A model generated the notes under the pieces. It had not been told where the DNA came from. It worked only from the letters and a program-made list of their open reading frames with translations, and made no database searches. Below are positions 14,190 through 34,214 of a stretch of 64,000 nucleotides of DNA, one piece after another (position 1 is the first letter of the stretch; every line of letters starts with the position of its first letter). Origin of the DNA: Tomocerus qinae (taxonomy: Eukaryota > Arthropoda > Collembola > Entomobryomorpha > Tomoceridae); the NCBI GenBank assembly GCA_020055645.1, contig CM034546.1, forward strand, positions 93,992,001 to 94,056,000, given 5' to 3'. The translations under genes and the position numbers were made by a program.

Positions 14190-14244
14190 CGTAGGTCCAC
14201 ACAAAGAATGCAAAATAAAAGTTGACAACTTACTAATGACTCGC

Positions 14245-14262
14245 TCCTAACCAGGGGCGCCA
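14245..14262 (-). other. Primer-binding site of the BEL element
   Basis: Five bases inside the 5' LTR the minus strand reads TGGCGCCCCTGGTTAGGA. A TGGCGCC start (complement of a tRNA CCA end) is usual for LTR-element primer sites. The priming tRNA was not identified. Confidence 0.6.
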
Positions 14263-17199: not shown

Positions 17200-17205
17200 A
17201 TTATA
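17200..17205. repeat. Polinton target-site duplication ATTATA, left
   Basis: Directly abuts the AG terminus; identical to 34209-34214. Confidence 0.95.
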
Positions 17206-17524
17206 AGTAGTATGTAAGGGGGGGGGGGAAGAGCCCTAACATGGATAGGTATGTCCCTACTCCTTATACATGGGTAGGTATATGTACTCAGGCCCACATG
17301 TATTTGACCCTATGTACTCCGGCCCACATGCATTTTTCCCTATGTTCTTAACCTCACATGCATTCTCCCTATGTTCTTAACCTCACATGTAAATCCCTAT
17401 GTTCTTAACCTCACATGTAAATCCCTATGTTCTTAACCCCACATGTAAATCCCTTTGATCTAAGTCCCATATGCATTTCTCTATGTTCTAAAGCCCACAT
17501 TAAAATCCCTATGTTCTCAAACAC
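17206..17524 (+). repeat. Left terminal inverted repeat of the Polinton, with 28-bp minisatellite
   Basis: 319 bp. Starts AGTAGTATGTAA, then 11 G. The outer ~200 bp match the reverse complement of the right end exactly apart from the G-run (11 against 9). The inner part is a minisatellite with units of about 28 bp (CCCTATGTTCTTAACCTCAC plus ATGTAAAT), roughly eight to nine copies. Copies come in two flavours (TTCTTAACCTC and TACTCCGGCCC). Confidence 0.95.
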
Positions 17525-17666
17525 AAATCTATATTTAAATATGGACATAATATGCAAATGACCATGTATGAATTGTATATGACAATAATAGAAAATTTTG
17601 TAATATTTAAACATACTTTTATTTATTGAGAATAACAAAAATTATATACATACCAACAAAAATATA

Positions 17667-18721: not shown

Positions 18722-19004
18722 GTTGAAAATTGAAGAATTCAAGAGAGCTGCTGGACAAGTTAATCAAATTCTAACTGATATTTCAAGTTTGGAATTGAAT
18801 TGTCAACTGATGGTTTATTGAGGTAAAGCATGGAGTTTATATAGGTCTGTCGTGAGTAAAGAAGTAATTTTTAAGTGTAATGTTAATACATACAGAGACT
18901 AGTGCAGCACATGTAGAAAAATAATTTTCGATAAAATTACCAAGAATTTGTTACCTGCTGGTTGGGTCCATATCAAACAGCAATACAAGTTAAAATCAGG
19001 TAGC

Positions 19005-19680
19005 AGGTAGAGAAATATTATAAGTACTTGCATGTTCCAATATTCTATTACTTGTCAAAGCAGGTAATAATCTATTTTAAACTTGTACCTTACCGATGGC
19101 ATAACTAAGTGTGGATCTGAGTAGGTAGAGAAATATTATAAGTACTTGCATGCTCCAATATTCTATTATTTGTCAAAGCAGGTAATAAACTATTTTAAAC
19201 TTGTACCTTACCGATGGCATAACTAAGTGTGGATCTGAGTAGGTAGAGAAATATTATAAGTACTTGCATGCTCCAATACTCTATTATTTGTCAAAGCAGG
19301 TAATAAACTATTTTAAACTTGTACCTTACCGATGGCATAACTAAGTATGGATCTGAGTAGGTAGAGAAATATTATAAGTACTTGCATGCTCCAATATTCT
19401 ATTATTTGTCAAAGCAGGTAATAAACTATTTTAAACTTGCACCTTACCGATGGCATAACTAAGTGTGGATGAGTAGGTAGAAACTTATGTATACCAATAT
19501 TATTGTAAAAGCAAGTAATAAACTACACTGGACTTGGAAATTACATAGCTAAGGACTCATATCCCATGTCTAATGCTTTATTTTAGTTGGCTGACAAATA
19601 TTATCAATACTCGCTTGGTTCAATTATTTGTCAAAGCAGGTAATAATTTATTTTTGACTTGGAATTTACATTGCCTAAGG
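19005..19680 (+). repeat. 118-bp tandem repeat array in the Polinton
   Basis: Units start with AGGTAGAGAAATATTATAAG at 19005, 19123, 19241 and 19359 (period exactly 118). A fifth at 19475 is degenerate, and further decayed pieces (TTTGTCAAAGCAGGTAATAA) run to about 19680. The middle units differ by only a few bases. Confidence 0.9.
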
Positions 19681-19720
19681 CCGCAAGTAGAATCATAATA
19701 AAACTTGTATATTCTTGTCT

Positions 19721-19747
19721 TCGACGTTCGACGTTCGACGTTCGACG
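19721..19747 (+). repeat. 7-bp tandem repeat (TCGACGT)
   Basis: Almost four copies of TCGACGT, each a near-palindrome around TCGA. The period of seven is not a multiple of three, which supports this stretch being leader and not part of the POLB protein. Confidence 0.85.
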
Positions 19748-19815
19748 AAATTATCCGCGAAGTGAAAGGGTTTCCTTCATTTTTATTCCCAGTGTTTAGT
19801 ATAAATAATGGGAAA

Positions 19816-22800
19816 ATGGCAATTAAGGTAGCTATTGATAGAGTAAATGTACTTATTGAAGAATTTGTGTGTAGAGGATCAGGTTGGACTTTAGAGTATA
19901 TTTCAGGATTTGAAATGATGATTTCCAGATATGAAGCTTTTAGTGGTGGAGGTAATAATGAATTACCTCCATTATTACAGAGTAAAATTAAATCATTGGT
20001 CAATGTTCCAGGTGATGATAACTTATGCTTTCAGAGAGCATGTTACGTACATCCTCAAGTAAACAACAGACAAACTCATGTACTTAAGAATAATAAAAGG
20101 TACTATAGTAACGTCAATTGGTATAATGAGGTCACTAGGTCATCGAACAGCTATCCCATTAATTGGAGCGGTATAGAATTTCCATTTGATATAAAACAGG
20201 CTCAAAAATTTGAAAAGCAGAACCCAAACATTGGTCTAACTATTATAGGCTTTTCGTCAGAATTCAGTGAAAACAAAATTAAGGATTCAATAAATAATAT
20301 AGACGAGGTTATCAATAGTGTGGTAGCTGATCATTCTTATAATAGTGACGATGACAATACTGTAGATTCACCAGATAAGATGACAAAATACCGGGAGCAA
20401 CAAAAACTTATAAGAAGTCATTGTGTTCCCCTACATGTATGTAAAACTCCTAGAAAAATCATGATCGATCTGATGATGATAATAGAGGAAGATAATGCTC
20501 ATTTTGTCTTCATTAAAGACTTACACAAACTACTAGCCAATGCAAGAAAAACTAAACATCTCTGTAGGTATTGTCTTCAATGCTTTAGTAAAGACTATGA
20601 CACTCATGTAAAATATTGTGCTGCCTTAGATGCACAAAAAACTAATTTTCCAGAAGACTCACACTTGTTTTTTAACAAATACGGTAGGACACAAATGGTA
20701 CCATACACAATTTTTGCAGATTTTGAAACATTTTGCAAAGCTATGGACGAACTCTTAATTGTAGATGAGGATATGGAAAATAATACAGTTAAGCAACAGT
20801 TGCACAAACCCTCAGGTTTTAATTGTCATATTGTCAATTGGTATGGGAAAATAGAAGACAGTCTTACTTATAGAGTAAAGAATGACAATGATGATGCTGC
20901 TCAGGAGTTACTCTATTATATAATAAAGTGGGGTGAGATTCTTCAAGGAAGGATAAAAGGCTTTGAAGAGACTGCAAAAGAAGAAATGTTAATGACTGAT
21001 GAGGAACAGGGAATATATATGAACAAAAGAACGTTGTTAAAACAAAAATGCTACTTTTGTCATAAAAAGTTTGAAGATGGAGATGATATTGTTAGACATC
21101 ATAATCATCTACCACCATATAGGTTTGAAGGTTTTGCACACAACGCTCCGTGCAATATTTTAGCGTCGATGTCGAAAAAAATACCTATTGTGTTTCATAA
21201 TTTAAGAGGTTTTGATGGGCACTACGTTTTGAAAGCTTCAACAATGGATTCTGTTGAATCTGTTGAAGTAATTCCACAATCTTGTGAAAAATTCATGAGT
21301 ATTTTAATCAACGAAAACTTAAAGTTTATTGATAGTTTTATGTTTATGAATGAATCATTAGCATCTTTAGTTGCTAACATGGATAAAAGTACGGATTTTC
21401 CCATTACCCGACAAGCCTTTAAAGGCTGTACAGAAGAACAAATACAGTTAATATTAAAGAAGGGTGCATATCCATATTCGTACATGGATTCTGTCGAAAA
21501 ATTTGATATTGATAAGCTACCACCCAAGGAAATATTTAGAAATGATTTGACGCGAACTGACATTGAGGATGATGTGTATGCTAATGCTGAAATAGTCTGG
21601 AAAGAATTTAACATTAAAAACATGGGAGAATGGCACGATTTATATGTCAAGTGTGATACTGTTTTGCTAGCCGATGTTTGGTTCAAACTTAGAAAGACTT
21701 TGTATGATGCATTTGGACTTGATGTATGTAATTACTACTCTCTACCCATGTTTAGTTTAGACGCAGCACTTAAAAAGACTGGAGTAGAGTTGGAATACAT
21801 AAAAGATTCTACTATGCATCTTTGGTTAGAAAGTGCCATCAGGGGAGGATTAGTTAGTGCAGGTGACCTAAGGGTGGGAAAACCAAATAATCCTTATTTA
21901 CCGCACTTTGACGAAAACAAACCTACCACATGGGGGATATATTTAGATGCAAATAATTTGTATGGAGGTGCTCTTAGCCAATTCCTACCTCGAGAAGGAT
22001 TTAAATGGTGTCCCAAACAGTTTCTCGATAATAAAATACGTCAAAATCCAAAAAAATTTGTAATGGATATTGACGATGAAGCAGAACTTGGTTATTTTTT
22101 CGAAGTTGATTTGAAAATTCCAGACAAATTACATGATAAACTAAATAGTTATCCTCCTGCACCAACAACTAGGATAATACAAGATGATGAAATATCACAC
22201 ATGATGAAGGATCTTAGGGATGATTTAGATTTGCCACCAGAAGGTAAACAGAAGAGACTGATTGCAGACTTAAAGCCAAAGCTGAATTATGTGTGTCATT
22301 ATCGTGCTCTTAAAACTTATGTTAGTTTAGGAGTGGAAATAACTAAAGTACATAGAGCAGTAGAGTTCACACAATCAGCTTGGATGAAACCCTACATTGA
22401 TTATAACACAATGCGACGACAAATGGCAACTAGTAAAATCGAAATTGCCTTTTGGAAGTTATTAAATAACTCTGGTTATGGAAAATTTATTGAAAATAAA
22501 CGAAATAGAAGACATATTCAGGTTATACGTAGTCAGGAGCGAGGGCTAAGGTATAACAAAAAGCCCACTGTAGAAAGACAAGTAATGATTTCGCCTGGTA
22601 ATGATGGTGAAGGTATGGTTTTGTTGATACTAAAAAGATTGCAGGTAACACTTGACAGACCTATTGCAGCAGGTGTTGCTGTTTTAGACATTAGTAAGAC
22701 AACAATGTTTAATTTCCATTATAACTATATTGCTAAAGAATATGAGGGGAAGTATAATTTGTTGTATACTGATACTGACAGTTTAGTTTACATGATCGAA

Positions 22801-23310
22801 ACAGAAAATATTTACGATGATTGTATAAGGAATGAAGACAGATTTTTTGACATGTCTGGCTATGATCCAAACTGTCCATTTGTTGGTAAATGTTTTAGCT
22901 CTAAGAACAAAAAGAGGTTGGGGTATTTCTCTGATGAAATGACAGATGGAGTTATTACTGAAATAATTGTAAACAAACCTAAAATGTATTGTGTTAGATA
23001 TTTACAGTTTAAGGACTTGGTTAAGGATGAGATTAATTACAAAGTGAAAATGAAAGCTAAAGGAATACCAAAAAGCTCTGTAAAAAATGATTTCCAATTT
23101 GACCATTTTGTAAATGCTATTTTACCTGAGACAAAAAGTCAAAGACAGACATATGCTGTTTTTAAAACTATTAAAAGTTATAAACATGAATTGTTTACTG
23201 TCGAATGTCGCAAGAAGGCTATTAATGGGTATGACATTAAACGCTATTGTCCAGATGGTATAAATACGTTTGCGTATGGTCACAAAGACATTCCATTATA
23301 TCATGTGTAA
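19816..23310 (+). CDS. POLB: Protein-primed family B DNA polymerase (Polinton POLB)
   Basis: 1164 residues from the ATG at 19816. The frame stays open upstream only through a 7-bp repeat and lacks an earlier ATG. The N-terminal block has the DDNLCF motif usual for Polinton POLB. A CxxC...C zinc-finger-like CRYCLQCF segment follows near 250. The 3'-5' exonuclease motifs are FADFE (D302, E304), NLRGFDGHY (D467) and YVKCD (D614). A CxxC/HNH-like insert (CYFCHKKF) lies near 412. Polymerase motifs are A, LDANNLYG (D711), with the protein-primed form in place of the usual SLYP; B, NNSGYGKF (884-891); and C, YTDTDS (984-989). All catalytic residues are present. It replicates the linear element using a terminal protein as primer. 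AATAAA at 23345 is a plausible polyadenylation signal. Confidence 0.97.
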   Translation: MAIKVAIDRVNVLIEEFVCRGSGWTLEYISGFEMMISRYEAFSGGGNNELPPLLQSKIKSLVNVPGDDNLCFQRACYVHPQVNNRQTHVLKNNKRYYSNVNWYNEVTRSSNSYPINWSGIEFPFDIKQAQKFEKQNPNIGLTIIGFSSEFSENKIKDSINNIDEVINSVVADHSYNSDDDNTVDSPDKMTKYREQQKLIRSHCVPLHVCKTPRKIMIDLMMIIEEDNAHFVFIKDLHKLLANARKTKHLCRYCLQCFSKDYDTHVKYCAALDAQKTNFPEDSHLFFNKYGRTQMVPYTIFADFETFCKAMDELLIVDEDMENNTVKQQLHKPSGFNCHIVNWYGKIEDSLTYRVKNDNDDAAQELLYYIIKWGEILQGRIKGFEETAKEEMLMTDEEQGIYMNKRTLLKQKCYFCHKKFEDGDDIVRHHNHLPPYRFEGFAHNAPCNILASMSKKIPIVFHNLRGFDGHYVLKASTMDSVESVEVIPQSCEKFMSILINENLKFIDSFMFMNESLASLVANMDKSTDFPITRQAFKGCTEEQIQLILKKGAYPYSYMDSVEKFDIDKLPPKEIFRNDLTRTDIEDDVYANAEIVWKEFNIKNMGEWHDLYVKCDTVLLADVWFKLRKTLYDAFGLDVCNYYSLPMFSLDAALKKTGVELEYIKDSTMHLWLESAIRGGLVSAGDLRVGKPNNPYLPHFDENKPTTWGIYLDANNLYGGALSQFLPREGFKWCPKQFLDNKIRQNPKKFVMDIDDEAELGYFFEVDLKIPDKLHDKLNSYPPAPTTRIIQDDEISHMMKDLRDDLDLPPEGKQKRLIADLKPKLNYVCHYRALKTYVSLGVEITKVHRAVEFTQSAWMKPYIDYNTMRRQMATSKIEIAFWKLLNNSGYGKFIENKRNRRHIQVIRSQERGLRYNKKPTVERQVMISPGNDGEGMVLLILKRLQVTLDRPIAAGVAVLDISKTTMFNFHYNYIAKEYEGKYNLLYTDTDSLVYMIETENIYDDCIRNEDRFFDMSGYDPNCPFVGKCFSSKNKKRLGYFSDEMTDGVITEIIVNKPKMYCVRYLQFKDLVKDEINYKVKMKAKGIPKSSVKNDFQFDHFVNAILPETKSQRQTYAVFKTIKSYKHELFTVECRKKAINGYDIKRYCPDGINTFAYGHKDIPLYHV

Positions 23311-23405
23311 TTTTTGTAAATATAATATTGTATATAGTATAAGTAATAAAGTATATGTAAGTAGAATAAAGAAAAAAATAAATCAGTCTTGTTTTAGACG
23401 TTGCA

Positions 23406-24076
23406 ATGGCTGGAACAATGTTTGTGAGTCCTGAGGATTGTCCTTTATTTGATTACAAGTTAAAAGCACCTTTTTGCATGACTATAGCGGGTCAAACCCA
23501 GTCTGGGAAATCAACACTGACTACAAAAATTTTACAAAGGAAAGATGAAATCATTGAACCACATATTGACCATGTTATTTATTGTTATACTACTGCCCAA
23601 CCAATCTTATTTGGTCGTCTAAAAAATTCGGTACCTGGTATAAGGTTTCATCAAGGATTACCTACTGATTATGGAAGTTCTCTTGATGGTCATAAGTTAG
23701 TGATTTTGGATGATCTTATGTGTGACGTGAGTGGATCAGTAGATGCAATTAAAGCCTTTACCATCATACTTCACATCATAATAATGTTTCTATTATATTG
23801 CTAGTTCAAAATTTATTTTACAAGCAATTGCGTGATTTGGTGCTACAAAGTAAGTATATTTGCGCTATGAAAAATCCAAGGGATAGCGTTGCCATCACAA
23901 TACTTGGAAGACAAATGAATGGTGGTAAAAAGAATGCCGTTGTTGATGAAGCCAGTAAGGATATTATGCAAAAGCCGTATGGATACTTAGTATTAGATTA
24001 TGGTCAAACACAAAATGACAATTGTAGAGTGAGAGATAGTATTTTTCCAGAAGAATGTACTGTTTATTTACAATAA
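23406..24076 (+). pseudogene. ATP: A32-type (FtsK/HerA) genome-packaging ATPase, frameshifted
   Basis: Starts at ATG 23406, 95 bp after POLB. The first frame (to 23804) holds Walker A GQTQSGKST and Walker B LVILDD, the P-loop signature of the poxvirus-A32-like packaging ATPases that push DNA into the capsid. Between about 23760 and 23772 the frame changes. The second frame runs to 24076 and contains the family's later block (VQNLFYKQLR, the sensor/arginine region, and QTQNDNCRVR). Together the two parts reach the usual length of about 220-230 residues. The break is not in a long homopolymer, so it may be a real inactivating indel. Confidence 0.9.
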
Positions 24077-24080
24077 TAAA

Positions 24081-24323
24081 TCAATCATAATTACATGTTT
24101 TATAACTTTTTACATTATTTACAGAAATACTAGCATCTAAATATACTAATGATTCATTTTGAATAGATTTAATCTGCATAATAAGAGACTGTAAAAGTGT
24201 TGTATTTACATAAACAATATTGATGTGTCCATCCGTGATTTGCTGTAACTTGATGACAGGTTCAAACATGATAACGTCATGGCTGATAGAAATAGGTGGT
24301 ACTTGAGATACTATAGTGTTCAT
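24081..24323 (-). CDS. Small hypothetical protein (80 aa)
   Basis: ATG at 24323. Its stop lies five bases beyond the ATPase stop on the other strand (tail-to-tail). Composition is ordinary and rich in I, V and Q, with a possible alternation of beta-strand-like and helical segments. No family is recognised. It lies next to the hairpin array, which sits directly upstream of its start and would fall in its leader or promoter. Confidence 0.5.
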   Translation of the reverse strand: MNTIVSQVPPISISHDVIMFEPVIKLQQITDGHINIVYVNTTLLQSLIMQIKSIQNESLVYLDASISVNNVKSYKTCNYD

Positions 24324-24345
24324 GGTGACCCTCCGTGGTTGACAC

Positions 24346-24497
24346 TATGCCAAAGGCATATATATATATACGCGTAGCGTAGACTTATGCTTTGCATATA
24401 TACGCGTAGCGTAGTCTTATGCTATGCATATATACGCGAAGCGTAACTTATGCCAAAGGCATATATACGTGAAACGTAGAAATATGCTTCGCATATA
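24346..24497. repeat. Array of nine alternating short hairpins
   Basis: Two palindrome families alternate. Type A is TATGC-n3-GCATA (with GCC/GGC variants) at 24346, 24386, 24418, 24449 and 24483. Type B is TACGC-n3-GCGTA at 24369, 24401, 24433 and 24466. The A-to-A period is 31-40 bp. Loops differ (AAA, TTT, TAT, TTC; GTA, GAA) while stems are kept. The last B copy has both arms changed together (TACGT-GAA-ACGTA), and some A copies have an added C-G pair. A GCC-rich stretch (24511-24528) follows. It lies between two leftward genes, upstream of the 80-aa gene. Confidence 0.9.
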
Positions 24498-24529
24498 CAA
24501 AAGGATCCCCGCTGCCGCCGCCGCTGCTC

Positions 24530-24784
24530 TTACTCTGGTTTATATTTTAGTAGCCAACCATAATTGTCTTTGATACTGGAACTCAAAACATTTAGTTCTT
24601 CCAAAGACAATTGATATTGGTGAATGGAATATGTACAATAGATTAGAATAACAAGGAGTGGAATTAGGAATATAATGTGTACAATGACAATTAAATGTAA
24701 GCAACACACAATGGGTGAGGGATCTTTCACCCTATATCCACCTTCAAGATAACTTGGTGGCAAGCTATCGCCTACAACGTCCAT
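24530..24784 (-). CDS. Small single-pass membrane protein (84 aa)
   Basis: ATG at 24784. A proline/glycine-rich N-terminus of about 25 residues precedes one long hydrophobic stretch (CLHLIVIVHIIFLIPLLVIL, roughly residues 28-50), and a polar C-terminus of about 33 residues follows. No signal cleavage site is evident. Function unknown. Small hydrophobic proteins are common accessory genes of adenovirus-like elements. It sits 21 bases downstream of the 508-aa gene on the same strand. Confidence 0.6.
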   Translation of the reverse strand: MDVVGDSLPPSYLEGGYRVKDPSPIVCCLHLIVIVHIIFLIPLLVILIYCTYSIHQYQLSLEELNVLSSSIKDNYGWLLKYKPE

Positions 24785-24805
24785 GGTGAAATGATGCTCG
24801 GTTGG

Positions 24806-26332
24806 TCAGGAGGTTGAGGTTTTATTCGAAAAATCGTTGTCGTCATCAGAGTCGCTAAATATATCCTTTCTCACTCTAATTCCATAAACAACGTCATCAT
24901 TGTCAGACTCTTCTGAACAACGAACGCTACAAGTGTCCTCTTCGTCGTATTTTAAACGTTTGCATGTCTTTAAACGTTCAACTGGCCATGGTCCGCAAAC
25001 GTCTTCCCCATCCTCTTCTTCATCCTCCAAACGTTTTTCTGTTTTCAATTTGTGACACTCAGATGATTCACAAACGTCAGCTTCTGGTTTCTTAGCTTGC
25101 TGGATTTCACACACGTCTTCTCCTTCGGATTCTTCTATATCGATTTTCATAGCAGCTAATATACGATCTGCATTCGGCAATTTCAAAAGACTATTCACCA
25201 CAAGCATCTTGGCGAAATCTTTTTGTGCTTTATCACAATTTGTAACCATATCTTCTACAATCTTCTTTCGTTTATGTATCTTTAATCGCTCAACTGGCCA
25301 CGGTCTAATTCCACAAACGTCTTCCCCCTCAGACTCCTCCTCCGACATGGCCTTCTTTCTCTGCCAACGTTTATTCCTCTCAATGATCGAATCTTCTATA
25401 ACTTTTGTAAACTTCTCTTTGTCAAATTCTTTTTTGAGTTTACTAGATGCTGCAATTAAGCCTTCCAATTCGGTTGTAATCGATTTCATCTTTTTAACTC
25501 TTGCTAGTTGTTTCATTTCTTTCTTGGATCTCATCTTCAGTCTACACTGACAATATTTTGGACATACAGATGAAATATTGGGTGGAACCAATATTCCTTT
25601 ACTGAGTATCGCTTGATTATTATCATGAAGACATTTGTATGGTTGACGAGTCGATAACCAATAAAATTGATCATCCTCAGAGTATTTTTCTCGAGGTACA
25701 CGATAATTTGTGTACAAATCCAATAGTTCCATAATTCTTGAACTTTCGTGGAACCAAAAATGAATATATAGTTGCTCCTCTGGTTGGTCAGGAACATACA
25801 ATTTGAAGCCCAACAATTGGTCCCCAACTTTTTGCTTGATAAATCGCAACCGCAAACTTGGAAAATCCGAAATCAATTTGTCGTCTAGAAAAATCTCGTA
25901 AAACGGAAGAAGTTTTGTTAGTCTGTCGTCAACCACACTCTTTCTAATTGCAAGTAAAACTTTTTCAATACCACGTCTATGAAATCGTAATTCTTCAATC
26001 TTTCTCCCGTATTGACATCTCATCATAGAGATTATTTCGTTGTTGTCCACAGAGATGATCATTTTTCCAAGGTATGGTAAAGGTAAGAGACGATTTGAGT
26101 CAACATAATTTTGAATTATGGATGGATATTTCAATCCCCAGTCCTCCTCAGGATCAAAAACGGTCTCATCGTTTATCGATCTTCTTAATTTATACTCTGC
26201 TTCCATGGCTGTAGTATTCAGATGATCCATTTTCGGTACTACGAAAGACTCGTTAGAAGTATACCAAATGTCGGGTTGGTTATGTCCTTGTAAACGTGGG
26301 TCGACCTCTGATTCCAACTTCTGACTGTCCAT
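24806..26332 (-). CDS. Accessory protein (508 aa), paralogue of the 267-aa protein
   Basis: ATG at 26332; the open frame upstream has only a TTG. Residues about 70-230 share a pattern with the next gene: LGK-(I/L)-x-(I/L)-S, a spaced series of basic strands, a helix-like segment, then RFIKQK...LLGFKLY...LYIHFWFHE, which parallels VRYTRQK...LTGFRLQ...LFIHFAIHE in the 267-aa protein. The C-terminal half has acidic repeats containing GEDVC followed by PWPVERLK and basic clusters, in about three copies, visible also at DNA level. The two modules could be a beta-rich nucleic-acid-binding fold (see findings). No family is recognised with certainty. Confidence 0.7.
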   Translation of the reverse strand: MDSQKLESEVDPRLQGHNQPDIWYTSNESFVVPKMDHLNTTAMEAEYKLRRSINDETVFDPEEDWGLKYPSIIQNYVDSNRLLPLPYLGKMIISVDNNEIISMMRCQYGRKIEELRFHRRGIEKVLLAIRKSVVDDRLTKLLPFYEIFLDDKLISDFPSLRLRFIKQKVGDQLLGFKLYVPDQPEEQLYIHFWFHESSRIMELLDLYTNYRVPREKYSEDDQFYWLSTRQPYKCLHDNNQAILSKGILVPPNISSVCPKYCQCRLKMRSKKEMKQLARVKKMKSITTELEGLIAASSKLKKEFDKEKFTKVIEDSIIERNKRWQRKKAMSEEESEGEDVCGIRPWPVERLKIHKRKKIVEDMVTNCDKAQKDFAKMLVVNSLLKLPNADRILAAMKIDIEESEGEDVCEIQQAKKPEADVCESSECHKLKTEKRLEDEEEDGEDVCGPWPVERLKTCKRLKYDEEDTCSVRCSEESDNDDVVYGIRVRKDIFSDSDDDNDFSNKTSTS

Positions 26333-26703
26333 GTCCTGAGTTGTTATTTGTAAGAGTGAATTTGTGGATGTGATGAGAAACAAGAAATTGTCAACTGCTT
26401 TTATACCTAGCCATGATGCTATTTTAAGTCATGGAACGTTTACATGTTGGGAATAATGTACGTACCTGACCGAGGATGATGAAACAAGTTTGTAACATGA
26501 TGAAACAAGTTTAAACCTACCTGACCATGATGAAACCTACCTGACCATGATGAAACAAGTTTAACCGTGTCCGAGTGTGTAAACATGGATGACGTATGCT
26601 TAGTCGGAATTCTATATTATATGATGATATACGTATATACAAAAACAAATCCTTAAAATTCAAAATTTTATTTACATCAAAATTTTTTATTTACAAGAAA
26701 AAA
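26333..26703. other. Intergenic spacer with 20-bp direct repeats
   Basis: Upstream region of the 508-aa gene and downstream of the 267-aa gene. Between 26463 and 26564 there are short direct repeats: CTGACCATGATGAAAC at 26521 and 26541, related copies of ATGATGAAACAAGTTT. No protein. Confidence 0.6.
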
Positions 26704-27507
26704 TTAATAACATATTTTTTTCGTTTTGGGTTCCTCTGCTGATTCATCCTGTGTCCGTTTTAAATGTGGACATTGGGTTTGGCAATCACTTGAAAAGTTG
26801 TCAATTTTGTCTTCATCCATCGGCTCGGGTTGGTCTTGGATTTTTAAAAATTGCTCATCCGGAATTTTATGTTCTTCTTGCATTTCTTTTATAGTCGCCA
26901 TGATGTTCATCTTTTGAAATTGCGAAAATTTGTGAATTATGTACGGAATTTCATGAATTGCAAAATGTATAAACAATGTTTTGCCAGTAAATGTATTTCT
27001 TTGCAGTCGAAATCCAGTCAGTTCCGGTCGTTTTTGCCGTGTATATCTCACAATCATGATAGATCCCGGACAAAATGTTGGACGCTGCCTCCATTCGTAG
27101 CTAGGATAAGTAGAAGACAGATATTGGTCAATGAGAGTATCTCTCATTAGCGCCTTCATTAGTGAGTCCAACGATGCCAATGGACAGTTAAAGTATTCTG
27201 AGGTAACATCGTTATGTTTTCTTCTCATGTGAATAAACACACTATTTCCACCAAACTTGGAAAAAGACAAAGTCAATTTCCCAATTTTAGAGTCGACATT
27301 AGGTGCACTAAATTGCCCACCTCGGTAGATTTCACTGAACTCGGCTTTACGTATTTTGATATAAAACAATTCTGCTTCCGACATTCCCTCTTCTTCTGGT
27401 AGTTTTTTCTTCTCCGTCTCCTTTTTTTGGGTAGAAAAACTTGTCTCGTCAGTCCCGGATGTATGATGATCTTCATGATCGACCAACATTTGGCTTTCGG
27501 TTTCCAT
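26704..27507 (-). CDS. Accessory protein (267 aa), paralogue of the 508-aa protein
   Basis: ATG at 27507. An acidic/polar N-terminus with a K/E-rich stretch (about 28-40) precedes two similar beta-alpha modules. The first starts IGKLTLSFSKF and ends in CPLASLDSLMKAL; the second starts MIVRYTRQK and runs through LFIHFAIHE. The same two-module core occurs in the 508-aa neighbour, so the pair arose by duplication inside the element. The C-terminus ends in a basic KTKKICY that could be a nuclear signal. Function unknown; nucleic-acid binding is inferred only from the strand pattern. Confidence 0.7.
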   Translation of the reverse strand: METESQMLVDHEDHHTSGTDETSFSTQKKETEKKKLPEEEGMSEAELFYIKIRKAEFSEIYRGGQFSAPNVDSKIGKLTLSFSKFGGNSVFIHMRRKHNDVTSEYFNCPLASLDSLMKALMRDTLIDQYLSSTYPSYEWRQRPTFCPGSIMIVRYTRQKRPELTGFRLQRNTFTGKTLFIHFAIHEIPYIIHKFSQFQKMNIMATIKEMQEEHKIPDEQFLKIQDQPEPMDEDKIDNFSSDCQTQCPHLKRTQDESAEEPKTKKICY

Positions 27508-27592
27508 TGTGAGAGTGAGTTGCTTACAGATAGACTGCTTGACCGATTGTGTTAATTTCTTGGATTCACAAACCTGTTTTTATTCTAAATTA

Positions 27593-27817
27593 TTAATGAC
27601 GCACAAGTGGAATGACGTCAATCTTTTTTCTAAGAATAGGATCTAATACACATTCCACTTTTGAAATACGGTCTTTGAATCGTAAGGAGTCGATATAGAA
27701 ATATTCCCAATATTTTGTTCTTGTTTCATCCTGTTTTGGAACTAAACACGTTTCAACCTGTTCAACAAATCTAACACGTTTCCTCCCGTCACAACCTTTT
27801 AATATTGATGACTCCAT
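27593..27817 (-). CDS. GADD34/PPP1R15-like protein phosphatase 1 targeting protein (74 aa)
   Basis: ATG at 27817. Residues 13-17 are KRVRF, a canonical RVxF docking motif for protein phosphatase 1 (PP1). Twenty residues later comes WEYFYIDSLRFKDRI (37-51), which matches the second signature of the PPP1R15 core: W-E, then D-x2-R-F-x2-R-I. E55, L58 and P60 follow as in that family. The core's order and spacing are also those of the short virus-encoded members. Family knowledge: these proteins bridge PP1 to phosphorylated eIF2-alpha, so translation resumes when a kinase has shut it down. The length fits a minimal viral version. It overlaps the 105-aa gene by 29 bp on the same strand. Host capture is likely but inferred. 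Confidence 0.75.
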   Translation of the reverse strand: MESSILKGCDGRKRVRFVEQVETCLVPKQDETRTKYWEYFYIDSLRFKDRISKVECVLDPILRKKIDVIPLVRH

Positions 27818-28106
27818 TACGATGTAGATAGTATAAAACGTTTGTAAAGTTTTCGGTTTGTATCTTTTTACGTTTTATTATATGATGTAAAACAAATACT
27901 CGCTTTTCTATATCGTAATATACAATAACTTTGTCAGTTATATTCACTGGAATTTCGTTTTCAGAGGGAGTATAATCTTTAATGTCACTTAGATATTGAT
28001 TATAGTTTGATTTTTTAACACAACAATTGCACTTACAATTTCGAACTGGAAATGGACAAGATAGATTTCTACCGTTGCAAAGTAAGTGTAAGAGGTTCAA
28101 AGCCAT
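27789..28106 (-). CDS. Small cysteine-rich hypothetical protein (105 aa)
   Basis: ATG at 28106, 17 bases after the integrase stop. The N-terminal 30 residues hold six cysteines (CNGRNLSCPFPVRNCKCNCC), a possible zinc-binding cluster. The rest is mixed, with a strand-rich middle (KVIVYYDIEKRVFVLHHI) and a basic segment. No family recognised. Its last codons overlap the start of the GADD34-like gene, an arrangement that fits co-transcription. Confidence 0.5.
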   Translation of the reverse strand: MALNLLHLLCNGRNLSCPFPVRNCKCNCCVKKSNYNQYLSDIKDYTPSENEIPVNITDKVIVYYDIEKRVFVLHHIIKRKKIQTENFTNVLYYLHRNGVINIKRL

Positions 28107-28123
28107 ACTGATGAATGTGTTTC

Positions 28124-29047
28124 TTATTCATATACCTTTTGTAGTTCCTGTTTATAGTAACCACCCTTTAATTCTTCTCCCTCTTCATTCTTTAGATAAT
28201 ACATTGGTGGGTTAGACAATTTGATATCTCTTATATAGAATACTTTATTGTCAAAATATTTCGTATATCCTTTTTCAAATATTGTTTTTTCGCGCGCTTT
28301 TAGTACCTTATCACCTATTTTAAATTGAGGTTTAATGTTTTTAGTAACTTTTCCGTATAAATTATAACCTACATCAATTTCATTCTTCTTATTCACCTCA
28401 ACGGGTTTCATCTTTATACTTCTGTGATATGAATTATTATATAAAAACTCAAAATTTTTTAATTTGTTTATAAATCGTTTTGTATTATGCTGTGTCATAT
28501 ATCTAGATATCTTTTGACCAAGTGTTCTAAAGAATCTTTCAGCAATACTACATTTCATTGGAGAATGAACAACGAAATGATTTATATTATAATCTGCCAT
28601 CATTTTTTTCATTTTTGAGTTAATAAATTCGGTTCCCAAGTCCGATTGAAGATTTTTACATTTACGTTTGCTGCGTTTTAGAATTCTAAGAAAAGCTTTT
28701 AAAACCGTGTCTGCATTTTTATTTGGTAATGCTTCCAACCAAGCCATTTTTGAGAATACATCAATAACACATAATATGAAGTTTTTTCTATAATTTGACT
28801 TGTTCCATTTCCTAATATCTAATAAATCCATTGCCCATTGGTCATCAATTCCGTAAACTATTACGCGCCTTCTTTTAAATCTTTTTCGTGCAGGAAAATG
28901 TAATGCATAGCCAGGAATCTTTGACAGTTGTTTTTTTACTTGATCTACATTACGATATTTGGTTTTTGAACTTTTTAGAAATCCAGTAAGACTGGAATAT
29001 GCACCCGGCTTTCTTAAATTAGTATATTCTTTAGTGACGTTATCCAT
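28124..29047 (-). CDS. INT: Retroviral-type integrase of the Polinton
   Basis: 307 residues from the ATG at 29047. The rve (RNase H-fold) core spans about 60-240. Catalytic residues are D74 (QWAMDLLDI), D136 (LQSDLGTEF) and E170 (SIAERFFRTL). KNFILCVIDVFSK and the block ending FLYNNSYHRS are typical for Polinton integrases. The N-terminus (ending in a YALHFPARKRFKRR-like basic patch) is short. The C-terminal part (FKIGDKVLKAR onward, ending YKQELQKVYE) is the SH3/chromodomain-like DNA- or chromatin-binding tail. It inserts the linear element, producing the 6-bp duplication. All three acidic residues are intact. It is divergent from the plus-strand gene at 29155. Confidence 0.96.
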   Translation of the reverse strand: MDNVTKEYTNLRKPGAYSSLTGFLKSSKTKYRNVDQVKKQLSKIPGYALHFPARKRFKRRRVIVYGIDDQWAMDLLDIRKWNKSNYRKNFILCVIDVFSKMAWLEALPNKNADTVLKAFLRILKRSKRKCKNLQSDLGTEFINSKMKKMMADYNINHFVVHSPMKCSIAERFFRTLGQKISRYMTQHNTKRFINKLKNFEFLYNNSYHRSIKMKPVEVNKKNEIDVGYNLYGKVTKNIKPQFKIGDKVLKAREKTIFEKGYTKYFDNKVFYIRDIKLSNPPMYYLKNEEGEELKGGYYKQELQKVYE

Positions 29048-29154
29048 GACTGTCTGGTTTTAAACTGAATCGAAATTTTATAAACGAAACTATTTAACTT
29101 GTTCTTGCTTGATTCAATTGTCAGTCGTACTTTGACAATGAAACAGGTAACATC
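29048..29154. promoter_or_regulatory. Divergent promoter region between INT and the plus-strand capsid-associated genes
   Basis: 107 bp between two start codons facing away from each other. It must contain at least one promoter; no clear TATA box is seen. Confidence 0.4.
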
Positions 29155-29490
29155 ATGGTCAAGCGAATAAAAGCAAACTACAGGTTTCTACACAAGTACC
29201 TTCGTTGTAATAATAAATATAGAAAACAAATTCTAGCATCAGCAACACCAGATCAACTTTGTTCAATCTGTGAAGCAACACTTAATGTTTGTAACAGAAA
29301 CGTACCTATCAGTGAAAATAAAGTTAAACGTTTAAAACCTCTTCAGAGAACAATAAAAAAGATTGCATTTGATACCAAAGTTCCATTAGAAGCAAAAAGG
29401 AAAATTTTAATTCAAAGGGGAGGAGCCTTTTTACCACTAATTCTCTCGACTGTTCTTGGACTATTAGCAAAAAGATGGTTAACAAAATGA
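29155..29490 (+). CDS. Small basic protein with GG motif and hydrophobic C-terminus (111 aa)
   Basis: ATG at 29155. Very basic, with a CxxC...C triplet (CSIC...C) near residues 36-46. A conserved-looking KRKILIQRGGAFLPLILSTVLGLLAKRW ending (written here in pieces: RKILIQRGG, then AFLPLILSTVLGLL) combines a possible adenain-type GG cleavage site with an amphipathic or membrane-active helix. Proteins of this design recur in Polintons and adenovirus-like elements, where minor core or membrane-lytic proteins are matured by the protease. Exact function is unknown. It overlaps the next gene by 16 bp. Confidence 0.6.
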   Translation: MVKRIKANYRFLHKYLRCNNKYRKQILASATPDQLCSICEATLNVCNRNVPISENKVKRLKPLQRTIKKIAFDTKVPLEAKRKILIQRGGAFLPLILSTVLGLLAKRWLTK

Positions 29491-30317
29491 GATTGGTTCC
29501 CGACATGCTTTTCCAATTATTTATGAAAATGCACGATTTAAATGCAGATGACAATAAAATATTATCTAGTAAACTTCCTGATGATGCTAAATTGTTACTT
29601 TATCAAGAACAAGCACGAAATTTGGAACAGAAAAGATTGAATCAGGAAAATCGACCTCTTTTAGTCAAGAATGTAAACTCTGAGAAAAATGAAAATACTG
29701 AAACAAATGACGACCCTCAACCAAAAATCAATGAGATTGCTGATAACTTACCACCAGCTGAAATCAATGAGGAGTCTCGTCCTGTGAAATTGATTAATCG
29801 TAAAAGAAGACTAGGATCTGAGATTCAGGAAGAACCTAAGAAACGAAAAATTCAAAAAATCAAAAAGAAAAACGTAGCATTCATGACAACAGACTTTATC
29901 CTGATAATTCCCCTTTTTATGCAAAAAAATTGTCACCCGTCGAGCCTTGGTTGTTACCACAGAAACCAAAATTATTTCCTGGTCGAAAGAGGAAAACACA
30001 ATGGTGTAACAGACAATACAGAAGATGATCGATGGGAGGACTATGTTGAAAACCTTACTATTGCCGATAAAAAGAAATTAAAATTATCTTCATTAAATGA
30101 AATTGAGGGTTCAAAAGGAAGTGATAATAAATGGAAACGAAAATCTGATTCAAAAATAATGATTAATAAAAGACATAAAACAGCTGATGACAGTTTCAGT
30201 AGCAATCGTGGACGAAGATATGAACCCGTCAAAAGGATGGTCAATGAGGTCAAAGAAAATAATATTCGGCGAAGTGTGAGAACAAAAAAGCAACACGTAC
30301 CATGGCAAGCATATTGA
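29475..30317 (+). CDS. Basic hypothetical virion-associated protein (about 280 aa), possibly with a double frameshift
   Basis: The ATG at 29487 (after a TTG/GTT stretch from 29475) begins MRLVPDMLFQLF, giving about 276 residues. It is lysine/arginine/glutamate-rich, with basic clusters (KKRKIQKIKKK; RRSVRTKKQH) suited to nuclear import or DNA binding. Between about 29870 and 29990 the annotated frame looks unnatural, while another frame reads a proline-rich stretch (LYPDNSPFYAKKL, then PVEPWLLPQKP). Two compensating indels may therefore have scrambled the middle. It follows the 111-aa gene with a 4-16-bp overlap. No family recognised; AATAAA at 30362 may end the transcript. Confidence 0.55.
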   Translation: MVNKMRLVPDMLFQLFMKMHDLNADDNKILSSKLPDDAKLLLYQEQARNLEQKRLNQENRPLLVKNVNSEKNENTETNDDPQPKINEIADNLPPAEINEESRPVKLINRKRRLGSEIQEEPKKRKIQKIKKKNVAFMTTDFILIIPLFMQKNCHPSSLGCYHRNQNYFLVERGKHNGVTDNTEDDRWEDYVENLTIADKKKLKLSSLNEIEGSKGSDNKWKRKSDSKIMINKRHKTADDSFSSNRGRRYEPVKRMVNEVKENNIRRSVRTKKQHVPWQAY

Positions 30318-30462
30318 TTTTTAAAATTTATTATTTTGTATTCAATGTTTACATTTTATTAAATAAAGAACGATTAAACAAATATAACCGTTGTACAATC
30401 ATATCATTTTTTCTCATATTTTTAGTGAATCCGTGATAAATTGACATTAAATTGTAACCACA
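30318..30462. other. Convergent intergenic region with polyadenylation signal
   Basis: Separates the plus-strand basic-protein gene from the minus-strand protease gene. AATAAA at 30362-30367 is a likely poly(A) signal for the plus-strand transcript. Confidence 0.5.
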
Positions 30463-30828
30463 TTATCTTTTATAAAGGAAATGTAATACATACAAACCAC
30501 AGAGATTTGATTGCATATCTTGAAGACAAATTTTGTTTTCAACTACATTCATTTTTAACATTTTTGCAAAATGTTTAAAGTATGAGCCATAAAAGTCCAT
30601 TCCTAATCCAAATGAGTCAAAGAAATTCATAGGTCCATTTATATTTGGGATGTATATTCCAAGCCAATGTTCTCCAGGTTGATCCTTAGTTTGATTATTT
30701 ACACAGAGACATACGGGATAAGTAATTATATTTAAACTGACCAATTCGTCACATGCTAGTACACGGTACATACATTTTTTACGCTTAAACATATTTTTCA
30801 TTATTTCATAAATATCTAAAGAATTCAT
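30463..30828 (-). CDS. PRO: Adenain-like cysteine protease
   Basis: 121 residues from the ATG at 30828. Catalytic layout of the adenain/Ulp1-like Polinton protease: H54 in GEHWLGIYI, D71 in FFDSFG, Q106 as oxyanion-hole residue and C110 in QSNLCGLYVLHFL. It would cut capsid and core proteins during particle maturation. It starts five bases after the MCP stop, on the same strand, so both are probably on one transcript. The length is short compared with adenain (about 200) but within the range of compact Polinton proteases. Confidence 0.93.
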   Translation of the reverse strand: MNSLDIYEIMKNMFKRKKCMYRVLACDELVSLNIITYPVCLCVNNQTKDQPGEHWLGIYIPNINGPMNFFDSFGLGMDFYGSYFKHFAKMLKMNVVENKICLQDMQSNLCGLYVLHFLYKR

Positions 30829-30833
30829 GTTTT

Positions 30834-32160
30834 TCAAAACTCTTTAGAGTAATCTTTCTTGTGTACTTGCTTGTCCTTGTTGATGTATAGAACTGATTGA
30901 TACTCTGCATAACATATGACTGTTATACTTTCAGCAAGTGCAGTTTTAAATTGAAAATTTATTGATATATTACCATGACGAGGAGGTGAAAAGGCATCAC
31001 GAACGTGTTTAAAATCATAGACAAACAATGATGAGCATTTTTTGTACATTGCTTTAGTTATGTCAATACAAGTGTCACAGTGAGCAATACCCATATTTTC
31101 AAACATTGCCATGTAGGCTTGAGCAAAGCGGTTGTTGTCAAAGTCAAGATCCATAGCTTTTGTAACATGTTGCTCTCCATTCATCTTGACAGTTAGGTTG
31201 GACAAATTGAAATGAGTAAGTTCAAATGGGTTTTTATTGTATGCTCCATTTATCGCATCACTGCGAACCAATGCCAATACAATTCTGTCGGGTAATAGAC
31301 CTGATAAAAGTGTTTCATTAGTATGTTGTAGTTGTCCTTTAGGTATGGCATACGTTTTCATTTCATTTTCCCTTTGGGGATACACAACATCATGACCAGC
31401 ATTCCATGTCTTTATATGATTCAAAGCCAAAGATGGTAATAATGCATGTTTGGTAACAATTAATTTTGCCTCGAGGATTTCTAGTTGAGGTTTGTAATTG
31501 GTATGCTCAGTCCCCATCGAACTTATACAAAATTCATCGCTTGATCGATACATATCAATCCTTACATCAACACCTGGAACAAAAAATCTAGGTTGCATAA
31601 AAATTTCACAATGTGGTCTTATTATTGATTCAAATTCTTTTTGACTCTTCTGCAATTTGTTGACGCTTTACCCAACCGGAATTGTCTTCAGTGAATGGAT
31701 AGTAAATTTGTGTTTCAGCTTGTGTCTTTTTGTATTCTTTTCCATACGATAATAGTAGTTCTAAATAAGCTCGATAAGGATAATATGGGTTCTTGTGGGT
31801 AACTTCATTGTCTTTGTATTTTACAACAATAGAAGAGAACATTGAATGGCCAAAATTATTAACTGGACCATATGCAAACTTGGTTTGGTCAGTAATTTTT
31901 GGGAGTTTAATTGGGGGCGAATGTTTTCCATCTACAATTTTACATCTAACCAGTAATTTAGCTTCTGTAAAATCAGTATAATGAATATCATTCCCGGGAA
32001 TATAAAACGATAAAGGAGCACCTCTGTCATTTAAATTATTTTGTGAATGGTATTCAACATTGTAACTATGGGTAATTGTCATGTCATAACCACTTTCAGT
32101 AAATATATCAGTTTCAGCACGTATAAAGTTAGGTGCTTGGTTTAAAGATTGACGTGGCAT
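30834..32160 (-). pseudogene. MCP: Major capsid protein (double jelly-roll), frameshifted
   Basis: Two overlapping frames cover one MCP gene. The N-terminal part runs from ATG 32160 (MPRQSLNQAPNF) to a stop at 31630, about 176 residues. The C-terminal part is open from 31655 to the stop at 30834, about 270 residues. Combined length, about 440, is normal for a Polinton MCP. The recognisable pattern includes an N-terminal PLSFYIPG strand region and a late FNLSNLTVKMNG strand block. The frame changes near 31640 within a run of five A (minus strand, TCAAAAAG), so a 1-base homopolymer error, a real mutation or a slippage site are all possible. Role: capsid shell of the virus-like particle. Confidence 0.88.
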
Positions 32161-32165
32161 TTTTT

Positions 32166-32666
32166 TCAAAATATTGATAACCTGGCTTGATTATATTTTC
32201 GTTTTATTTTTCTTGCTTTAGTTGGGATTGAGAAAGATAATTTTCTTGACTTCCTCTTCTTTGACTGTCCACTTGTTATTGAGAGAGACGATTTTCTTGA
32301 CTTCCTCTTCCTCGAACGTCCACTGCCCGATTGATTCAAAATATCATGTCTTATGTTATTAAATGTGTTTTTAGCTGCTTGTTTTCCATGAGTTTTTATA
32401 CTCTCTCCGATATTGTGTCCATTAATAGTATCACTAGCAACGTTTTTTATTACATTTGTTGCGTGAGGTAATACATACTTTTTCGTTGTTGGAAGAATAT
32501 AGTTTCTAGCAAATGGTATTAAACGTCGAAAAAAGGAACCAAAGATTCCACCTAATCCAGATCCACGTTGACGTAGAAATGATGGTCTATAATATACTAA
32601 GCCACTTCCAATTTGAGGATGAACATAATCAAAATAATAATTTGGATTATCACTGTGTGAATACAT
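32166..32666 (-). CDS. Basic minor capsid / pVI-like protein
   Basis: 166 residues from the ATG at 32666. Tyrosine-rich start, then glycine motifs (QIGSGLVYY; RQRGSGLGGIFGSFFRRLIPF) that combine possible protease cleavage sites with an amphipathic helix. The C-terminal third is highly basic with duplicated S-x-K-K-R-K-S-R-K units. This combination resembles adenovirus pVI/pX-like membrane-lytic or DNA-binding minor capsid proteins, and its position between penton-like and MCP genes agrees. Homology is inferred from design and order, not from a catalytic signature. Confidence 0.65.
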   Translation of the reverse strand: MYSHSDNPNYYFDYVHPQIGSGLVYYRPSFLRQRGSGLGGIFGSFFRRLIPFARNYILPTTKKYVLPHATNVIKNVASDTINGHNIGESIKTHGKQAAKNTFNNIRHDILNQSGSGRSRKRKSRKSSLSITSGQSKKRKSRKLSFSIPTKARKIKRKYNQARLSIF

Positions 32667-32729
32667 TTTGAGATGTGTATTAGTCAAAGTCTAAATGGAC
32701 ACTGAAGATAATTTATAAAATGATTAATT

Positions 32730-33464
32730 TTAGTATCTTTTTCGACGAAAATGTAGTTGGGCACAAAAATTGCCAAATGTAAAAGGTAGATTTTCACCAG
32801 ATTCGGACTTGATGTACATATGAATTTTGTCAATATAGGAACTTGACAATCCAAGATATGTAGGATTGTCAATTGCTTTAGTAGTAGGTTGTCTCTCATT
32901 ACCTTCATAGTTTTCAATCAACATTAATGGCGCCAAAATATCTCCTACATACTGTGACTTTACAATGTTTGAATAGACATGTATTCGTGTTAGTCCTGTT
33001 TCAAAATATGGTGGAAATGTCGTTATAGAAATTGTTTTGAGATTCCTGGTTCCTTTATCTATCATTGGACCTCCAATTAAAACTTCTATTCTTGAATCTA
33101 ATTTGATACACGAATAGGTCCCCCAATCTAGTTCTAATTCATAAATTTGTCCATTTTTTTCATTAAATTTTATTGCGTCATACTGATTCAATTCAATCAT
33201 CAAGTCCTTAATATTGTCGATACGATTACGCGTCTTCACTTCTATGTACTTCTTGAATGCTTTATGTAAACAGGAGTATAATACATAATCTTTCGGGATA
33301 GATGGTGCACTATAAATGTATGAATATTTTGTTATAGCCACTTCGTATAAATCATCTTCCAATTCGATGGGAGTATGTAGATGATTCTTAAAATCTGATA
33401 TCGTATTGTCAGGGAAAAAATCACCAGATGCGTCACTCATTACTGTATGGTAAAAGCTATCCAT
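32730..33464 (-). CDS. mCP: Penton-like minor capsid protein (single jelly-roll)
   Basis: 244 residues from the ATG at 33464. The N-terminus follows the Polinton minor-capsid consensus: MDSFYHTVMSDASGDFFPDN, then a strand-rich block IELEDDLYEVAITKYSY. The remainder alternates short hydrophobic strands. It would form the five-fold vertices of the capsid. It is the first gene of a leftward run mCP, pVI-like, MCP, protease, with short gaps, consistent with a late structural transcription unit read from the right terminus. Confidence 0.88.
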   Translation of the reverse strand: MDSFYHTVMSDASGDFFPDNTISDFKNHLHTPIELEDDLYEVAITKYSYIYSAPSIPKDYVLYSCLHKAFKKYIEVKTRNRIDNIKDLMIELNQYDAIKFNEKNGQIYELELDWGTYSCIKLDSRIEVLIGGPMIDKGTRNLKTISITTFPPYFETGLTRIHVYSNIVKSQYVGDILAPLMLIENYEGNERQPTTKAIDNPTYLGLSSSYIDKIHMYIKSESGENLPFTFGNFCAQLHFRRKRY

Positions 33465-33812
33465 GTTGAGAGCGTGAAGTCTCAAAGTGAACTGAGTCAG
33501 TTATTTTTGGATGTGTAATAAATACTACTTTGTTTTGTACAATAGTAAATCAGGTGTAGTAGCAACCTTAATAACGTGAGAGACACTGTTACGGGAAATA
33601 TGTATTCGATTCCTGGTGCCTCCACCAAAAAGTTGCAACTACATCTGATTTTTGGTGAAATACTTTTTGTTGAGTATACACGTTTGAGTATATAGGATAT
33701 TAGGAGTATATAGATAATTTTGTGTCTGAGTATAATTACAATGTATTTTACATAATTAAGTAATTACCATATAATTAGTAAATTAATTTTTTTAAATTAA
33801 TTATAAGTAATC
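33465..33812. promoter_or_regulatory. Upstream region of the Polinton structural gene run
   Basis: 348 bp between the minor-capsid start and the right terminal repeat. AT-rich, with an A/T palindrome near 33780-33803 (AATTAATTTTTTTAAATTAA). It presumably holds the promoter for the leftward capsid genes. No protein. Confidence 0.45.
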
Positions 33813-34208
33813 GTGTCTGAGAACATAGGGATTTGAGTGTGGATAGGGAGAATGCATGTGAGGTTAAGAACATAGGGAAAAATGCATGTGGGCCGGAGTA
33901 CATAGGGAAAAATACATGTGGGCCGGAGTACATAGGGATTTACATGTGAGGTTAAGAACATAGGGATTTACATGTGAGGTTAAGAACATAGGGATTTACA
34001 TGTGAGGTTAAGAACATAGGGATTTACATGTGAGGTTAAGAACATAGGGAGAATGCATGTGAGGTTAAGAACATAGGGAAAAATGCATGTGGGCCGGAGT
34101 ACATAGGGTCAAATACATGTGGGCCTGAGTACATATACCTACCCATGTATAAGGAGTAGGGACATACCTATCCATGTTAGGGCTCTTCCCCCCCCCTTAC
34201 ATACTACT
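33813..34208 (-). repeat. Right terminal inverted repeat of the Polinton, with 28-bp minisatellite
   Basis: 396 bp. It mirrors the left end but carries about two to three more minisatellite units, so it is 77 bp longer. The inner boundary (GTGTCTGAGAACATAGGG) matches the left inner boundary with one change. Confidence 0.95.
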
Positions 34209-34214
34209 ATTATA
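34209..34214. repeat. Polinton target-site duplication ATTATA, right
   Basis: Second copy of the 6-bp duplication, directly after the right terminus. Confidence 0.95.

Follow-up and report, generated by a model that had tools for sequence, protein, structure and literature searches.

A 74-codon frame on the minus strand at 27593..27817 of the window (the whole 64,000-nt stretch of Tomocerus qinae DNA analysed here) is very probably a functional gene of the surrounding Polinton, encoding a minimal PPP1R15-type regulatory subunit, that is, a PP1 adaptor that would dephosphorylate eIF2-alpha and so reverse a host block on translation. The frame was assigned as a PPP1R15-like gene from its translation (P0001, 74 aa) and its homology to the PPP1R15 core. 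An earlier note on the window had proposed a minimal GADD34/PPP1R15-like adaptor, and this reading is largely supported by profile matches, residue conservation and purifying selection, the function being predicted from sequence. We infer that the gene is expressed, that its product binds PP1 and actin and dephosphorylates eIF2-alpha, and that the element benefits.

The earlier note knew of no such gene in a Polinton, and a full-text literature search, with most subscription papers outside its reach, linked none to these elements. A term search of the main text of three adintovirus/Polinton papers (PMC8363768, PMC11071296, PMC11071308) returned no mention of PPP1R15 or eIF2; in the passages concerned, the Polinton papers that mention eIF2 or PP1 refer to giant-virus translation factors, a stress transcript and a bacterial-type phosphatase, and to no PPP1R15-like Polinton gene. 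One paper that describes a baculovirus homologue of PPP1R15A also reports, separately, a Polinton copy in a bracovirus, with no link drawn between the two in the passages concerned (PMC5704228).

The Polinton and its gene content

The element around the frame is a full-length Polinton of 17,003 bp (17206..34208), whose ends read AGTAGTATG... and ...CATACTACT. Polinton/Maverick elements measure about 15-25 kb, and the size of the element, its terminal inverted repeats and its 6-bp target-site duplication are all those of a Polinton. The inverted repeats are ~313 bp long (about 17206-17518 and 33896-34208; 291 of 315 aligned columns identical), and the duplicated target site, ATTATA, is identical on the left (17200..17205) and on the right (34209..34214).

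The Polinton gene set of integrase, PolB, ATPase, protease and double-jelly-roll capsid is present, with PolB and ATPase lacking a significant Pfam match. The integrase (28124..29047, minus strand) matches rve (PF00665) at an E-value of 1.9e-9, over the Pfam cut-off. The major capsid protein gene, of the double jelly roll type (30834..32160, minus strand), matches PF21738 at E 2.3e-5 with 24.2 bits, under the cut-off of 27, and the adenain-like protease (30463..30828, minus strand) matches PF00770 at E 0.0024, also below the cut-off. A PolB-like frame of 1164 aa (19816..23310, plus strand) was assigned by reading, position and synteny, and a packaging-ATPase-like gene (23406..24076, plus strand), for which the Pfam P-loop matches are weak, by reading and synteny. 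In the window copy the capsid and ATPase genes are each split over two frames, whereas they are single frames elsewhere (capsid, 446 aa in the element L060; ATPase, 224 aa in L059); this copy is therefore probably not autonomous.

The PPP1R15-like gene lies between ORF105 (27789..28106, minus strand), its upstream neighbour, and ORF267 (26704..27507, minus strand), its downstream neighbour. The PPP1R15-like gene starts within the 3′ end of ORF105, sharing 29 nt with it (27789-27817) in a different frame, and a similarly tight overlap occurs in most copies; this arrangement may reflect coupled or leaky translation. ORF267 shows weak similarity to ORF508 (24806-26332; blastp E 5e-4 over about 110 aa), the tails of which are acidic and repeat-like, and neither frame has a Pfam match over the cut-off or a PHROGs match below E 0.03. 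An acidic frame of 324 aa near the left end of the Polinton (17667-18641) has no significant match in Pfam or PHROGs. Inspection by eye also located a tandem array with a unit of roughly 120 bp at 19000-19500, inside the Polinton before the PolB-like frame. In the flank, a long frame (8940-14246; 1,749 aa from ATG) presumably represents a retrotransposon polyprotein, as it reads like the BEL/Pao type.

Similarity of the frame to the PPP1R15 core

Translation of 27817..27593 on the minus strand yields both motifs named in the earlier note, K-R-V-R-F at residues 13-17 and W-E-x4-D-x2-R-F-x2-R-I at residues 37-51. The former, at 27767..27781, is a putative RVxF PP1-docking motif in which V15 and F17 correspond by alignment to V641 and F643 of PPP1R15B. 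The latter, W37-E-x4-D43-x2-R46-F47-x2-R50-I51 at 27665..27709, contains the Trp switch followed, as judged by alignment, by the G-actin-facing residues F47 and R50 and the eIF2-alpha-facing residues D43 and R46. Between them lies R33 (27719..27721), the aligned counterpart of PPP1R15B R658, which occupies the arginine pocket of PP1; R33 precedes W37 by four residues, as R658 precedes W662. Further downstream, L-x-P-I-L (residues 58-62; 27632..27646) aligns with a short DP71L motif and, in PPP1R15A, with the stretch S-P-C-L. All of these features are on the minus strand.

The earlier note had staked its reading beforehand on a profile match to PPP1R15, and such matches were found in Pfam, in the PDB and by hhalign. 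The best Pfam match of P0001 is PP1c_bdg (PF10488; E 1.7e-4), residues 12-57 aligning with profile positions 169-213 at 21.8 bits, under the curated gathering score of 26.1. The same profile is matched by all ten representative copies at E<=1, with a best E-value of 1.9e-5. A single-sequence search of the PDB returned PPP1R15B, DP71L and PPP1R15B as its top three matches (E 0.0038 to 0.0064), with unrelated proteins following from E 0.15. When the search was performed with a ten-copy profile, built from ten representatives chosen by the analyst from 26 distinct open sequences, all four matches at E<=1 belonged to the PPP1R15/DP71L family: DP71L (4.4e-6), PPP1R15B (1.5e-5 and 2.5e-5) and PPP1R15A (0.16).

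Comparison by hhalign with 16 vertebrate-type PPP1R15 exons gave a probability of 96.1% (E 3e-9, score 51), whereas none of 100 column-shuffled controls exceeded 40.5%, the best having a score of 26. A profile of human PPP1R15A and PPP1R15B fragments, built without the query, ranked the 74-residue frame first among the 535 stop-to-stop frames of at least 40 aa within the window, at 22.3 bits against 2.8 for the next. Scored as a protein against the PPP1R15A+B profile, P0001 reached 23.1 bits, as against 9.9 bits for the best of 20,000 shuffles, and the second-half motif occurred in none of 100 base-shuffled windows. Eleven columns are invariant between three Polinton proteins and the 16 vertebrate-type exons, namely F17, E19, V21, R33, W37, E38, D43, R46, F47, R50 and I51. 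On these sequence comparisons, the 74-residue frame is a homologue of the PPP1R15 (GADD34/CReP) functional core and of viral DP71L. An AlphaFold2 model of P0001 was of low confidence (mean pLDDT 58, helix at residues 31-67), and a Foldseek search with it returned one meaningless match (E 7.1).

Protein collections were also searched for relatives. A single-sequence search with P0001 of 5.8 billion proteins yielded no candidate, and the ten-copy alignment yielded 78 candidates, none at E<=10. Because the Polinton sequences alone found no relative among these proteins, all support for the frame as a Polinton gene comes from its own genome. When human PPP1R15 fragments were added to the query, 29 proteins were matched at E<=10, all carrying a precomputed PF10488 annotation; the 16 exons used with hhalign were taken from these. 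Seventeen of the 29 were inspected by eye and judged to be PPP1R15 of vertebrate type, none resembling the Polinton protein, and the two named by their source were both PPP1R15. Scans of a viral contig collection, which to our knowledge holds few animal elements, found no relative.

Copies in the genome and selection

The frame was searched against the assembly of the species itself (334 Mb in 115 contigs), and the 43 matches were fetched as 40 loci. An open frame starting with ATG is present at 33 of the 40, representing 26 distinct DNA sequences, and the remaining seven are broken or truncated. The open copies fall into subfamilies A (that of the window; 15 copies, three of which have changed C-terminal ends), B (16) and C (2), and identity to P0001 is 50-58% for most copies in B and C. 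Within the stretch fetched for each of the 40 loci, at least one of integrase, ORF105 and ORF267 has the expected position and orientation relative to the gene; the integrase is upstream at 36, ORF105 upstream at 38 and ORF267 downstream at 39. No host-gene copy apart from a Polinton was found among these loci. At one place (C1:12552700-12553500; L048/L097), a stretch of about 520 bp holds three degraded pieces of the PPP1R15-like gene, a pattern that resembles local duplication.

The gene order from capsid to PolB is the same in L059, L060 and L062, although ORF508 was not detected in L060. A further element, L061 (C1:31552800-31562700), has its middle part in common with the window, but its protease and capsid matches are rearranged, being inverted beyond the ATPase; two overlapping integrase matches are present, and the fetched piece contains no PolB. 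To judge by this arrangement, L061 appears to be a rearranged or nested Polinton.

The assembly was also searched with PPP1R15 itself. With the PPP1R15B core, in a search that scores only the best candidates, 31 places were matched at E<=10, and all 31 are copies of the PPP1R15-like frame, each match being weak when taken individually (E 0.096 to 0.92). The PF10488 profile gave no match in the genome at E<=0.001, and the controls gave none either; a PPP1R15A fragment gave no candidate in a search insensitive enough to miss the Polinton copies too, and no host PPP1R15 was found.

The earlier note had further held that its reading would fall if the RVxF and WE/RF residues were not conserved in related Polintons, and these residues are kept in three subfamilies of the same genome. 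With gaps set aside, V15 and F17 are both present in 39 of 39 aligned copies (one more copy being gapped there), R33 in 38 of 39, W37 in 37 of 40, E38 and D43 in 40 of 40, R46 and F47 in 39 of 40, and R50 in 39 of 39. At residue 51, the 39 aligned copies divide into 22 with Ile and 17 with Val, P60 is kept in 38 of 38, and L62 in 34 of 38.

The test for purifying selection that the earlier note had suggested indicates that protein change between subfamilies is constrained. In these contrasts pN is 0.26-0.34 and pS 0.75-0.84, giving ratios of 0.35-0.46, and Fisher tests with one pair per contrast gave p-values of 2e-8, 6e-8 and 2e-7; both ratios and p-values are rough, as saturation is nearly reached at synonymous sites and the three contrasts have lineages in common. 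The ratios within subfamilies are 0.45 and 0.48, and the between-subfamily contrasts are preferred because those within subfamilies mix selection with the neutral decay of inserted copies.

A comparison of the window with three other elements, which covered all but the L062 protease and capsid, placed the pN/pS of the PPP1R15-like gene (0.34-0.36) in a range similar to that of PolB (0.29-0.34) and the protease (0.30-0.39). The capsid and ATPase genes have lower values (0.06-0.32; capsid 0.20-0.32), and ORF105, ORF267 and ORF280 higher ones (0.47-0.69). The spread of the integrase (0.19-0.43) includes the PPP1R15-like gene, with overlapping match pieces double-counted in some rows of the comparison, for example the integrase in L061, where 450 codons were counted for a 307-aa protein.

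Predicted mechanism, alternatives and known systems

PPP1R15 is reported to wrap along PP1 by means of its RVxF motif, a hydrophobic pair, an arginine and a tryptophan (PMC4394352, PMC8500838), R658 of PPP1R15B occupying the arginine pocket (PMC4394352). In the helix of PPP1R15A, F592 and R595 bind G-actin, and R591, R594, R587 and D588 face the eIF2-alpha barrel (PMC8500838). By alignment, D588, R591, F592 and R595 (at Trp+6, +9, +10 and +13) correspond to D43, R46, F47 and R50 of P0001, with the offsets from the tryptophan matched. Mutations reported as damaging affect R658, W662, F672 and I676 of PPP1R15B and R591, F592 and R595 of PPP1R15A (PMC4394352, PMC8500838), and the aligned counterparts are R33, W37, F47 and I51 (Val in 17 of 39 copies) for the former and R46, F47 and R50 for the latter.

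On this model, the N-terminal half of the Polinton protein, with its RVxF motif, hydrophobic pair, R33 and W37, would dock on the host PP1 catalytic subunit, and the helix after W37, with D43, R46, F47, R50 and I51 followed by L-x-P-I-L, would bind G-actin while directing PP1 towards eIF2-alpha. Removal of the Ser51 phosphate from eIF2-alpha by this complex would then allow translation blocked by host eIF2-alpha kinases to restart while Polinton proteins are made. Host eIF2-alpha keeps the contact residues Y32, M44, S51, K79, Y81 and D83, so the substrate surface is present. Residue 42 of eIF2-alpha is Glu both in the host protein and in the human sequence used for comparison, where the published passage names Asp42.

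Several features depart from the canonical core. The residue at Trp+12 (D49) is acidic in nearly all Polinton copies (Asp in 34, Glu in 4 and Gly in 1 of 39 aligned copies), whereas it is basic in PPP1R15A (R594), PPP1R15B and DP71L; the human enzyme was weaker in vitro with an R594A substitution, an effect milder than that of R591A or W582A (PMC8500838). The residue at Trp+5 (R587 in PPP1R15A) is Ile in P0001. P0001 ends soon after L62, and nothing in it aligns with the C-terminal amphipathic segment that contacts actin (R612 in PPP1R15A, F696-Q700 in PPP1R15B); the R612 contact is described as less important (PMC8500838), and deletion of the last PPP1R15 residues is reported to abolish the actin effect (PMC4394352). 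Strict membership of the PPP1R15 family is not claimed, because P0001 scores under the Pfam gathering score and lacks the basic residue at Trp+12.

These departures bear on how else the frame might be explained. The frame might encode a PP1 adaptor that descends from the PPP1R15 core but now has a different target, such as a Polinton protein or another host antiviral phosphoprotein, and it would fit this account that the PP1-docking half is conserved while substrate-facing Trp+12 is charge-reversed and Trp+5 non-basic; GADD34-type holoenzymes have, moreover, been reported to act on TAK1 and IKK (PMC10807198). A change of substrate is nevertheless unlikely, given that R46 and D43, the counterparts of the eIF2-alpha contacts R591 and D588, are nearly invariant along with the actin contacts F47 and R50, that P60 (38/38) and L62 (34/38) are kept in the segment aligned with the DP71L bridging motif, and that host eIF2-alpha retains its contact residues.

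It is highly improbable that the frame is a captured host PPP1R15 exon carried as a mere passenger without function for the Polinton. The PPP1R15 core is a separate exon in both isoforms (PMC4394352), so capture of the core alone would have been easy, and 7 of the 40 copies are broken or truncated; yet 33 remain open, the gene occupies the same place in three subfamilies, the pattern expected of neutral substitution was tested for between subfamilies and constraint was seen instead, and the pN/pS of 0.34-0.36 resembles that of PolB and the protease and lies below that of ORF105, ORF267 and ORF280. That so short a frame resembles the PPP1R15 motif by chance is scarcely credible, for although the frame has only 74 codons and P0001 falls under the Pfam gathering score, the profile comparisons, the shuffle controls and the conservation of the motif residues refute it.

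The reading as an eIF2-alpha phosphatase adaptor is preferred here, and it is rather likely that an animal Polinton lineage carries and maintains its own such adaptor, with an altered substrate-facing surface. If so, these Polintons would go through a stage at which the synthesis of their proteins is stopped by host eIF2-alpha kinases, as in virus infection, and the host-virus conflict over eIF2-alpha would reach elements that are generally listed as transposons. It has long been asked whether animal Polintons are transposons or endogenised viruses; to this question a maintained gene of the kind best known for undoing a stress-kinase block on translation would bring evidence of a virus-like phase that is independent of the capsid genes. 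A PPP1R15-type gene fits an infectious phase, since it is useful when the cell makes much foreign product, and the gene, together with the constraint on the capsid between subfamilies, points indirectly to such a phase; a stress response to the Polinton's own replication inside the host cell would also select for it. The 74-residue protein is directly testable, and its acidic residue at a substrate contact offers natural variation with which to probe the lower size limit of a working eIF2-alpha phosphatase adaptor.

The element resembles the adintoviruses and other animal Polintons in type, with genes for PolB, integrase, ATPase, protease and capsid. As the earlier note had stated, short PPP1R15-like cores are known from large animal DNA viruses, and the literature searched places them in a herpesvirus, African swine fever virus and baculoviruses; the Polinton gene suggests that the trick is not confined to such viruses. 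In herpes simplex virus, ICP34.5 (gamma34.5) is described as a viral PPP1R15 core that undoes eIF2-alpha phosphorylation (PMC10807198). A PPP1R15A homologue is listed among baculovirus genes of likely lepidopteran origin and, in that passage, lies outside any Polinton (PMC5704228); capture by insect DNA viruses thus has a precedent, the likeness to ICP34.5 and to the baculovirus proteins being drawn from their descriptions.

PPP1R15A/GADD34 and PPP1R15B/CReP share with the Polinton protein the 11 invariant columns and the 96% hhalign match; unlike them, the Polinton protein lacks a long N-terminal region, a G-P before the tryptophan and a recognisable actin segment at its C-terminus; it is acidic at Trp+12 and, compared with PPP1R15B, has one more residue between RVxF and the tryptophan. 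The short form of DP71L from African swine fever virus, whose short motif is reported to be needed for bridging PP1 and eIF2-alpha (PMC10807198), differs in that the Polinton gene lies in an integrating element and its product is acidic at Trp+12. DP71L is likewise a stand-alone core of about 70 aa (a 71-aa chain) with RVxF near its N-terminus, a non-basic residue at Trp+5, and Trp-Glu, Asp, Arg-Phe, Arg-Ile and a leucine-ended segment at the same place, and it is the best PDB match of the ten-copy profile. By mechanism, the Polinton protein would belong with the viral GADD34-like adaptors.
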